A DNA stretch of 40,698 nucleotides. It comes from Flavobacteriales bacterium. Its GTDB lineage: Bacteria > Bacteroidota > Bacteroidia > Flavobacteriales_D > Sanyastnellaceae. This document shows positions 35,439-36,942 of the stretch, in pieces. A program made the translations under genes and the position numbers. Positions within the stretch are counted from its first letter, which is position 1; each line of letters opens with the position of its first letter. The notes below the pieces were generated by a model. The model ran no database searches and was not told where the DNA came from. It worked only from the letters and a program-made list of their open reading frames with translations. Where the stretch lies: positions 1 through 40,698 of the forward strand of contig JAQWFN010000078.1 in assembly GCA_029238785.1 (NCBI GenBank), in the 5' to 3' direction.

Positions 35439-35472
35439 GTGCTTAAAAAGACGTTCTATCTCGTCTGGTATT

Positions 35473-35480
35473 CAAAGGTA
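35473..35480 (-). promoter_or_regulatory. Candidate -7 box of the RprX/RprY-like operon
   Basis: On the minus strand TACCTTTG is an exact TAnnTTTG match, 34 bases upstream of the GTG at 35438. No -33 TTG is seen. The TTAAC repeats begin 40 bases further upstream, as expected for an activated promoter. Confidence 0.5.
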
Positions 35481-35519
35481 AGTGTTCTCTTCGCTGATGC
35501 CCGTGAAGCTTGACTTTTT

Positions 35520-35554
35520 TTAACAAGTGTTAACCTCATTTTAACAAGCCTAAC
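35520..35554. promoter_or_regulatory. Direct TTAAC repeats, candidate OmpR-family operator
   Basis: TTAAC occurs at 35520, 35530 and 35541, with CTAAC at 35550, giving steps of 10, 11 and 9 bases. The first and third extend to TTAACAAG. Helically phased direct repeats are the usual target form for OmpR/PhoB-type regulators, and the nearest such gene is the RprY-like regulator of the adjacent operon. The sites lie between the kinase promoter and a plus-strand -7 box at 35568, so they could serve either. Confidence 0.5.
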
Positions 35555-35567
35555 CAAGGCTTCTATT

Positions 35568-35575
35568 TACATTTG
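35568..35575 (+). promoter_or_regulatory. Candidate -7 box of plus-strand small RNA
   Basis: TACATTTG is an exact TAnnTTTG match. There is no -33 TTG, but the TTAAC repeats end 13 bases upstream, where a bound activator could replace it. The predicted start is near 35582. Confidence 0.4.
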
Positions 35576-35581
35576 ACTTGA

Positions 35582-35713
35582 GTTAGTCGGACAGCTTTTT
35601 TCTAACTGTCTCATGATTATTTAGGTTAATTGGGCGACAAAACACTTTGGTATTTTGGGACCTATTTCGAAACAAACTGAAAAACACCTGTAAACGAACG
35701 GGTGTTTTTTTTT
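35582..35713 (+). ncRNA. Candidate small RNA (plus strand), ~130 nt
   Basis: No open frame longer than three codons follows the ATG here, yet the segment has a -7 box upstream and an intrinsic terminator at its end. Near the 5' end two mutually exclusive hairpins are possible: AGTTAG (35581-35586) with CTAACT (35602-35607), or GACAG (35590-35594) with CTGTC (35606-35610). No known RNA family is recognised. The evidence is the promoter-terminator pair in a gene-free region, which is suggestive only. Confidence 0.4.
35680..35713 (+). terminator. Intrinsic terminator, plus orientation
   Basis: AAAAACACC (35680-35688) pairs with GGTGTTTTT (35701-35709), and the T run continues to 35713. No protein-coding gene on the plus strand ends nearby, so it implies a non-coding transcript. 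Some minus-strand activity is possible, because the left arm gives five T there. Confidence 0.8.
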
Positions 35714-35715
35714 GC

Positions 35716-35747
35716 AAAAAAAGAGTCAAAACCGAAGTTTTGACTCT
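35716..35747 (-). terminator. Intrinsic terminator with UUCG tetraloop, minus orientation
   Basis: On the minus strand AGAGTCAAAAC, loop TTCG, GTTTTGACTCT form a perfect 11-bp stem capped by an exceptionally stable C(UUCG)G loop. A run of T follows; the plus strand shows A at 35716-35722. No protein-coding gene ends upstream on this strand. Confidence 0.85.
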
Positions 35748-35848
35748 CACTAACTAATCAGATAACCGAATGCGTCGGGAAACGCATTTGATTTTACCCT
35801 CGTTTGGGCCATCACACCTTGCAAATACTTGGTGTTTACGATATCTCA
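35716..35848 (-). ncRNA. Candidate structured small RNA (minus strand), ~133 nt
   Basis: Read from ~35848 leftwards. The 5' AGATATCG (35846-35839) pairs with CGGTTATCT (35768-35760) through eight pairs with one bulge. This encloses three hairpins: ACACC/GGTGT (35835-35814), GCCC/GGGT (35809-35796) and ACGCATT mirrored with AATGCGT (35788-35769). A UUCG-capped terminator follows. Two of the pairs are G-U and form only in the minus-strand transcript. An exact -7 box lies directly upstream, so the predicted start falls 2-3 bases before the closing stem. A 20-codon frame (ATG at 35812, stop at 35750) overlaps the structure but looks incidental. Rfam families such as 6S-Flavo or Flavo-1 are possible; I could not assign one. 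Confidence 0.6.
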
Positions 35849-35854
35849 GAAACA

Positions 35855-35862
35855 CAAATATA
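35855..35862 (-). promoter_or_regulatory. Candidate -7 box of minus-strand small RNA
   Basis: On the minus strand TATATTTG is an exact TAnnTTTG element. The expected start ~7 bases downstream coincides with the edge of the predicted closing stem. No -33 element is evident. Confidence 0.5.
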
Positions 35863-35934
35863 AGCCAATTATTCGCCTAGTTTTCAGTGTTCAGGCCTTT
35901 TTTTTAAGCGCTTTTAGATTCTGACCTTCAGTTG

Positions 35935-35966
35935 TTTGAATTTACGACTAGAACGACCTATCTTTG
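35935..35966 (+). promoter_or_regulatory. Promoter of the prs-rplY-pth operon
   Basis: TTTG at 35935-35938 and TATCTTTG at 35959-35966 are separated by 20 bases and match both parts of the Bacteroidota vegetative promoter. The predicted start near 35972 lies between an upstream in-frame start (35932) and the ATG at 36001, which decides the prs start. Confidence 0.8.
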
Positions 35967-36000
35967 CACCCCCATTTTAAACCTTGTCATAACTTGTCGC

Positions 36001-36942
36001 ATGAACGATAATTTGAAGATTTTCGCAGGTTCTGCATCTCGAGAGATTGCAGAGCGCATCGCCCACGAATATGGCGTTGAGCTTGGAGAAGTAAATCTTC
36101 AGCGTTTTAGTGATGGGGAAATTCAGCCTTCGATAGAAGAAACAGTTCGTGGAAAAGACGTTGTGATTGTACAATCAACATTTCCTCCTACAGATAATTT
36201 ATTCGAATTGTTGTTGTTGGTTGATGCTGCTAAACGAGCATCTGCTAAACGAATTGTAGCGGTTTTACCTTATTTCGGTTTTGCTCGTCAAGACAGAAAA
36301 GATAAGCCACGTGTTGCAATTGGAGCGAAGTTGGTAGCCAACTTGCTCACTGCAGCAGGCGTTGACCGAGTGATTACAATGGATTTACACGCAGATCAGA
36401 TTCAAGGCTTCTTTGAAGTTCCTGTAGATCATTTATTTGCTTCAACCATCTTTCTTCCTACCCTTCAGAAACTCGATTTGCCAAACATGGTGATTGCAAC
36501 ACCTGATACTGGTGGTACGAAGAGAGCAAACGCTTATGCCAAGTTCTTACAAGTAGATCTTGCTATCTGCTATAAGCAAAGAAAAGTAGCCAATCAGGTG
36601 GACAGCATGACCGTAATTGGTGATGTGAAAGGAAAAGACGTTATTTTAATTGACGACATGTGTGATACCGCTGGTACACTAACGAAGGCTGCTGAAATGA
36701 TGATGGATCATGGGGCAAGCAGTGTTCGCGCAGTGTGCACCCATGCCGTGTTAAGTGGACCAGCATACGAACGCATTCAAGATTCTGTTTTGAGTGAGTT
36801 AATTGTAAGTGATAGCATTCCATTGAAAGATGGAAAGCCAAAAGATAAGATTCGTGTTATCGAAACACATGAGATGTTCTCTCGAGTTTTGAAGTGTTTG
36901 GTGAACAACGAATCGATTAGTTCGCAATTTTTAATTTCATAA
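36001..36942 (+). CDS. prs: Ribose-phosphate pyrophosphokinase (PRPP synthetase)
   Basis: A 313-residue class I PRPP synthetase, making phosphoribosyl pyrophosphate from ribose-5-phosphate and ATP for nucleotide, His and Trp synthesis. The N-terminus KIFAGSASREIAERIA, the ATP/flexible-loop segment YFGFARQDRK, the metal site TMDLHADQIQGFF and the PRPP-binding loop VILIDDMCDTAGT (~residues 216-228) are all present. The start at 36001 gives the normal family length; the 23 upstream in-frame residues precede the predicted transcription start. It is followed after 10 bases by the L25 gene and then pth, a common bacterial cluster. The operon promoter is a near-perfect consensus. Confidence 0.98.
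   Translation: MNDNLKIFAGSASREIAERIAHEYGVELGEVNLQRFSDGEIQPSIEETVRGKDVVIVQSTFPPTDNLFELLLLVDAAKRASAKRIVAVLPYFGFARQDRKDKPRVAIGAKLVANLLTAAGVDRVITMDLHADQIQGFFEVPVDHLFASTIFLPTLQKLDLPNMVIATPDTGGTKRANAYAKFLQVDLAICYKQRKVANQVDSMTVIGDVKGKDVILIDDMCDTAGTLTKAAEMMMDHGASSVRAVCTHAVLSGPAYERIQDSVLSELIVSDSIPLKDGKPKDKIRVIETHEMFSRVLKCLVNNESISSQFLIS

Follow-up and report, generated by a model that had tools for sequence, protein, structure and literature searches.

An uncatalogued candidate small RNA gene with an invariant 15-nucleotide block beside prs in a Flavobacteriales lineage

In the stretch of DNA analysed here (40,698 nucleotides of a Flavobacteriales contig; hereafter, the window), an intergenic segment lies between two groups of genes. 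One group encodes a histidine kinase (HisKA/HATPase_c) and a response regulator (Response_reg/Trans_reg_C); the other consists of prs and the genes for an L25-type ribosomal protein and a peptidyl-tRNA hydrolase. An earlier note proposed that this segment encodes a stand-alone minus-strand RNA of about 133 nt, either a member of a known Bacteroidota RNA family or a new one. The locus raises the questions of whether such a gene exists, how far it extends among relatives and what the RNA might do. Comparison of eight homologues, the window copy included, indicates that this is a real, conserved and uncatalogued small RNA gene. The features discussed below are collected in Table 1.

Table 1. Features of the RNA gene and its surroundings, in window positions
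Feature	Position	Strand	Remarks
RNA gene	35848-35716	minus	about 133 nt; start inferred from the box, end at the end of the T run
-7 promoter box TATATTTG (TAnnTTTG)	35862-35855	minus	exact match
Closing stem P1, 5' strand (AUCG)	35839-35842	minus	pairs with 35768-35765
Closing stem P1, 3' strand (CGGU)	35765-35768	minus	G-C in the window, U-A in six relatives
Hairpin H1 (ACACC/GGUGU)	35814-35835	minus	predicted fold
Hairpin H2 (GCCC/GGGU)	35796-35809	minus	predicted fold
Hairpin H3 (AUGCGU/ACGCAU)	35770-35787	minus	all 6 modelled pairs covary
Possible mini-ORF, 9 codons (speculative)	AUG 35787 to UGA 35758	minus	
Invariant block AUCUGAUUAGUUAGU	35749-35763	minus	identical in 8/8 homologues
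Intrinsic terminator, UUCG-capped	35748-35716	minus	stem 35748-35721, 12 pairs
Terminator T run	35722-35716	minus	7 T
Kinase gene's own box	35480-35473		
prs promoter box	35959-35966	plus	97 nt from the RNA's box
Second RNA candidate	about 35582-35714	plus	convergent with the first RNA; region 35568-35714
Box TACATTTG of the second RNA candidate	35568-35575	plus	
Terminator hairpin of the second RNA candidate	about 35680-35711	plus	9-T run

Signals, strand and fold of the RNA

The segment combines several sequence features of a small RNA gene, namely a promoter box together with an intrinsic terminator, an intergenic site and no conserved protein frame. The exact TAnnTTTG box reported in the earlier note is present, and the UUCG-capped terminator with its T run was likewise borne out. 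Near the corresponding place, an exact box is found in five of the eight homologues and a box with one mismatch in the other three; within 24 nt at this place, an exact box would arise at random with a probability of about 0.01 per sequence, one-mismatch boxes being commoner by chance. The box starts 14, 11 or 6 nt ahead of the folded stretch, depending on the genus (6 nt in genera g2 and g13), and the RNA therefore probably does not begin at the same point in all genera. The T run is short in the homologues L004 and L007. From these signals, we infer that the RNA's own TAnnTTTG promoter drives its transcription and that its own terminator ends it.

The minus strand of the segment has a predicted fold of −42 kcal/mol (z = −4.04, with none of 200 shuffles as good), and the plus strand scores equally well (z = −4.17), so that the fold alone gives no orientation. 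The aligned stems of the eight homologues, however, contain 13 G-U cells (manual count) that would be A-C if read on the other strand. The argument from G-U pairs, originally made for the window, thus holds across the homologues, and the box, the T run and the G-U cells together fix the predicted RNA on the minus strand.

The three enclosed hairpins described for the window recur, together with the terminator, in all eight homologues. The z-scores of the whole RNA are −4.20 in the window, −5.60 in L002, −3.68 in L003, −4.96 in L004, −4.04 in L005, −4.62 in L006, −6.13 in L007 and −5.72 in L036, and range from −2.50 to −4.99 when the terminator is left out. The minimum-energy folds of all eight sequences place a hairpin at the positions of both H1 and H2, the sequences of which differ by genus. 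These two hairpins are not alignable by sequence and their hand-assigned arms pair fully; for L002, the H1 pairing of the predicted fold disagrees with the hand assignment, and one base of the window copy belongs to both H1 and the outer arm of H2. The closing stem is weaker than the earlier note claimed. Its inner part (AUCU/AGGU, with hand-assigned arms) is largely kept, with four of four pairs in seven sequences and three of four in L002, whereas its outer part (AGAUA/UAUCU), as read from the sequences, is complete in the window and L006 alone (2/8). Where the box lies only 6 nt ahead of the folded stretch (g2 and g13), the transcription start may coincide with or follow the 5' strand of the stem, which may then be incompletely transcribed.

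The compensatory changes in relatives on which the earlier note had staked its RNA are present. In the model-fitted alignment of all eight sequences, 98.5% of 135 cells pair, and sliding the partner by 1-3 columns lowers this to 31-50%. Both sides change in 10 of the 17 pairs of H3 and the terminator (shuffled mean 3.0, none of 500 shuffles as high; at most 3 in the slid versions), counts that lean toward the structure to which the alignment was fitted and that, among related sequences, can exceed those of such shuffles. A change on both sides somewhere among the eight sequences is seen in each of the six modelled pairs of H3 and in 4 of the 11 modelled terminator pairs, five of which never vary. 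The covariation score is 0.500 (shuffled mean 0.233, none of 500 as high), and the number of further pair types is modestly above that of the shuffles (17 versus a mean of 13.8, with 9 of 500 as high).

Distribution and neighbourhood of the gene

A DNA search of 60 genomes yielded homologues beside prs in G001, G002, G006, G013, G025 and G032. A covariance model of the 3' part of the RNA (R1), built from L003 to L007 alone, found the window (53.9 bits), G001 (47.7 bits) and, newly, G081 (69.9 bits), none of which had been used in building it. Strong R1 matches occur in 8 of the 114 family genomes, the window's own included, with one match per carrier, and these eight carriers are all the members of genera g1, g2, g6 and g13 in that set; a prs match was obtained in 106 of these genomes. 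When R1 was run on 70 prs-upstream regions from 69 of those 106 genomes (30 with default filters, 40 with filters off), eight regions carried the RNA and the best non-carrier region scored 17.9 bits. In all eight carriers, the RNA lies upstream of prs and is divergent from it. A pattern consisting of the block followed by GAG was detected in six stretches of genome_contigs, a collection that may omit the window's near records, all of them from known carriers; the block pattern had no match in viral_contigs.

Scans at the order and class levels, for which stricter filters were used that can lose weak members, produced no convincing new carrier. The order scan of 399 genomes gave 22 matches, the eight and 14 weak ones (E 0.001-0.009), and the class scan of 395 genomes gave four, three carriers and G738 (6.4e-5). 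The family scan added six weak matches (E 0.02-0.08), one of which is a second place in the carrier G002. The weak matches total 21, and 19 of these were read (12 of the 14 from the order scan had loci). The full block is absent from all 19, at most 11 of its 15 positions being matched, and one of them has an exact TAnnTTTG box in the 130 nt upstream. We take the weak matches for probable terminator look-alikes, with very remote homologues possible among them. In one weak match, L056 (G307, family f9), the terminator is preceded by TTAGTTAGTTGA, 12 nt that are shared with the block and the sequence following it; no exact box lies in the 130 nt upstream, and the resemblance could be fortuitous or reflect distant homology. 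A Prs tree of 30 rows does not settle whether the gene had a single or multiple origin: three changes are required to account for the carriers, and one change suffices in 0% of 200 bootstrap trees, yet the starred branches force only one.

The gene downstream of the RNA is not the same in all carriers: in g1 and g2, the kinase and response regulator follow, and in G032 and G081 (g13), a LytTR response regulator gene is convergent with the RNA. Furthermore, the LytTR response regulator gene and prs of G016 (g16) are 105 bp apart with no R1 match between them, and in G110 (g11) only 67 bp separate prs from the start of an HK-like gene, recognised by eye from its frame, which leaves no room for the RNA. 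Given these empty sites and the changing or convergent neighbours, the RNA is an optional gene and no general leader. The stand-alone RNA of about 133 nt originally proposed is accordingly supported on three counts, the covarying stems, the box and terminator of its own and a downstream gene that varies by genus. The location between the kinase gene and prs in the window might suggest a cis element, either a leader or attenuator of the kinase or a part of prs regulation. However, the convergent downstream gene in g13, the separate box of the kinase and the position of the prs box on the opposite strand, 97 nt away, all speak against such an element, and we consider it highly improbable. In all eight carriers, the TAnnTTTG box of prs is directly followed by CACCCC, a conserved transcript-start context.

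A second RNA candidate, on the plus strand, faces the first one and, in g1 and g2, is divergent from the kinase gene. The G001 copy is 89.9% identical by blastn and agrees in 128 of 147 columns of a global pairwise alignment. In G002 (L049:2536-2705), the candidate is alignable, with a different terminator stem sequence and with TTATTTAGGTT and CCTATTTCGAAAC kept. Its fold z-scores are −2.40, −3.19 and −5.46. In the window, this candidate has no Rfam match at gathering score; only sub-threshold matches were obtained, such as Phe_leader in L049 (30.1 bits versus a cut-off of 55). Between the two RNA genes of G002, at about positions 2700-3130 of L049, there is what looks, by eye, like a fragment of a disrupted TonB-receptor-type N-terminal domain.

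The invariant block and its possible partners

The block AUCUGAUUAGUUAGU remains constant although the 5' strand that is able to pair with part of it changes. In the predicted fold of the window, the AUCU of the block is paired and UUAGUUAGU is mostly unpaired. From UUAG on, the block is predicted to be largely open in the window, L002 and L006; it is partly open in L003, L004, L005 and L036, and mostly paired in L007, which counts against the explanation that we prefer.

What the comparison shows is a conserved predicted structure, its orientation, a fixed place beside prs and an invariant block. The best explanation, which in our judgement has an even chance of being correct, is a stand-alone, trans-acting small RNA of one Flavobacteriales lineage, with the block as its contact site. 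Transcribed from its own TAnnTTTG promoter and ended at its own terminator, the RNA would act in trans; the hairpins would form a stabilising scaffold, free to drift in sequence, and the block just before the terminator would make the contact, most simply as a seed for antisense pairing with a set of mRNAs. At 15 nt without any variation, the block is longer than a usual seed, so the partner may be a protein or another fixed molecule.

An RNA-binding protein could be such a partner, with the RNA either carrying or sequestering the protein bound to the block and its UUAG repeats. These repeats resemble the single-stranded sites of RRM proteins, and the identity of the block in all eight homologues while the hairpins drift would fit a protein-binding or titrating role. 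However, RRM_1 was identified in five of the eight carriers and not found in G000, G001 and G002 at E<=0.001, which makes an RRM protein unlikely as the general partner, and we regard the protein-binding role itself as rather unlikely.

Sites nearly complementary to the block (13-mer, one mismatch) number 21 in the eight genomes, the gene itself included, compared to 32 for the reversed control. In the two g6 genomes, 13 nt of the block have a complement at site 1501, exact in L150 (G025) and with one mismatch in L158 (G006), close to the end of a gene and just ahead of a hairpin; such sites are not enriched overall. For pairing with the whole 16S rRNA, in the three genomes that yielded 16S, 181, 32 and 70 of 300 shuffles were as good, which does not set it clearly above chance; for the 790-loop segment of 16S, which was picked by eye, the signal is weak, with 61, 58 and 66 of 2000 shuffles as good. 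Pairing with the prs 5' region was at chance level, matched by 61 to 434 of 500 shuffles in seven carriers and by 490 of 500 mononucleotide shuffles in L002. With the convergent plus-strand RNA, 120, 68 and 13 of 500 shuffles paired as well, and the site of pairing differed in every case. Among long complementary sites, 16S rRNA, the prs 5' region, the plus-strand RNA and RRM proteins, no partner is supported as general.

The block is also unusual with respect to translation. It contains UGA, UAG and UAG in three frames, staggered by 4 nt, an arrangement found in 0.4% of permuted blocks and in 3 of 705 other 15-mers of these RNAs. An AUG is located 0-8 nt before H3 in all eight homologues (the chance is about 0.14-0.26 per sequence), and its frame ends within the block at the UGA in four, at the first UAG in one and at the second UAG in three, so that all three stops are used; this pattern was noticed post hoc and in related sequences. 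These observations would fit a ribosome-linked RNA, in which a mini-ORF would open with the AUG at the base of H3, cross this hairpin and, whatever its frame, end in the block just before the terminator, the act of translation rather than the peptide being what matters. We find this quite unlikely given that the AUG lies in or beside a stem (inside H3 in the window) and that the frame, and hence the peptide, is not conserved. A bolder version, and a long shot in our estimation, is that the sole conserved sequence element of the RNA is a frame-independent stop under a recurrent AUG, which would engage and release ribosomes whatever the peptide, the RNA being, in two genera, one half of a facing pair of new small RNA genes. 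Stops in all three frames are also created by the TAACTGA direct repeats of marine Beggiatoaceae, described as mostly intergenic (PMC4679880); those repeats occur in many copies, whereas the block is single and resides inside one structured RNA.

Relation to known RNAs and implications

With regard to the choice between a known and a new family left by the earlier note, the results favour the latter. At gathering score, Rfam 15 has no match to the RNA in the window (where the sole match is a tRNA elsewhere), in L001-L007 or in L036. Neither of the two families that had been named as candidates was recovered: 6S-Flavo (RF01685; model length 108, gathering 85 bits) is not among the 8 matches at E<=10 for 35440-36010 and has none in the genome at E<=10, and Flavo-1 (RF01705) is not among the matches at E<=10 for the same region. 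6S (RF00013) has no match for the region either.

6S RNAs bind RNA polymerase and template product RNAs, and their fold is a rod with a central bubble. An RNA of the 6S type, which would mimic an open promoter, bind RNA polymerase and replace 6S-Flavo, could be envisaged given that neither 6S nor 6S-Flavo has an over-cut-off match in the eight carriers, so that the role is unfilled as far as the models see. However, both models are equally silent in the 10 other genomes among the 18 searched, which makes replacement judged by presence and absence uninformative, and 6S-Flavo has nothing over cut-off in the 114 family genomes. Moreover, the RNA has a branched three-hairpin predicted fold instead of a long rod with a central bubble, and we see hardly any likelihood of a 6S-type role. 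Sub-threshold 6S matches of 21.1 and 15.3 bits (cut-off 46.4) in the two g6 genomes appear, by eye, to be coding sequence.

6S-Flavo and Flavo-1 are both listed as non-cis Bacteroidetes RNAs (PMC2864571). The Rfp RNAs of Flavobacterium psychrophilum are characterised as short, independent transcribed regions without coding potential, with strong predicted structure in 18 of the 45 not antisense to genes (PMC9723704). As described there, they were detected by RNA-seq, whereas the RNA considered here is known from comparison alone. Among the matches listed for the open-licence literature, no paper describes this RNA.

The results presented here point to an RNA family that is supported by covariation and has no Rfam 15 match, in a lineage known from metagenome assemblies. 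Since the hairpins drift and a single block stays unchanged, the 15 nt of interest are precisely defined. If the three-frame stop were functional, the RNA would represent an uncommon type of ribosome-linked RNA.
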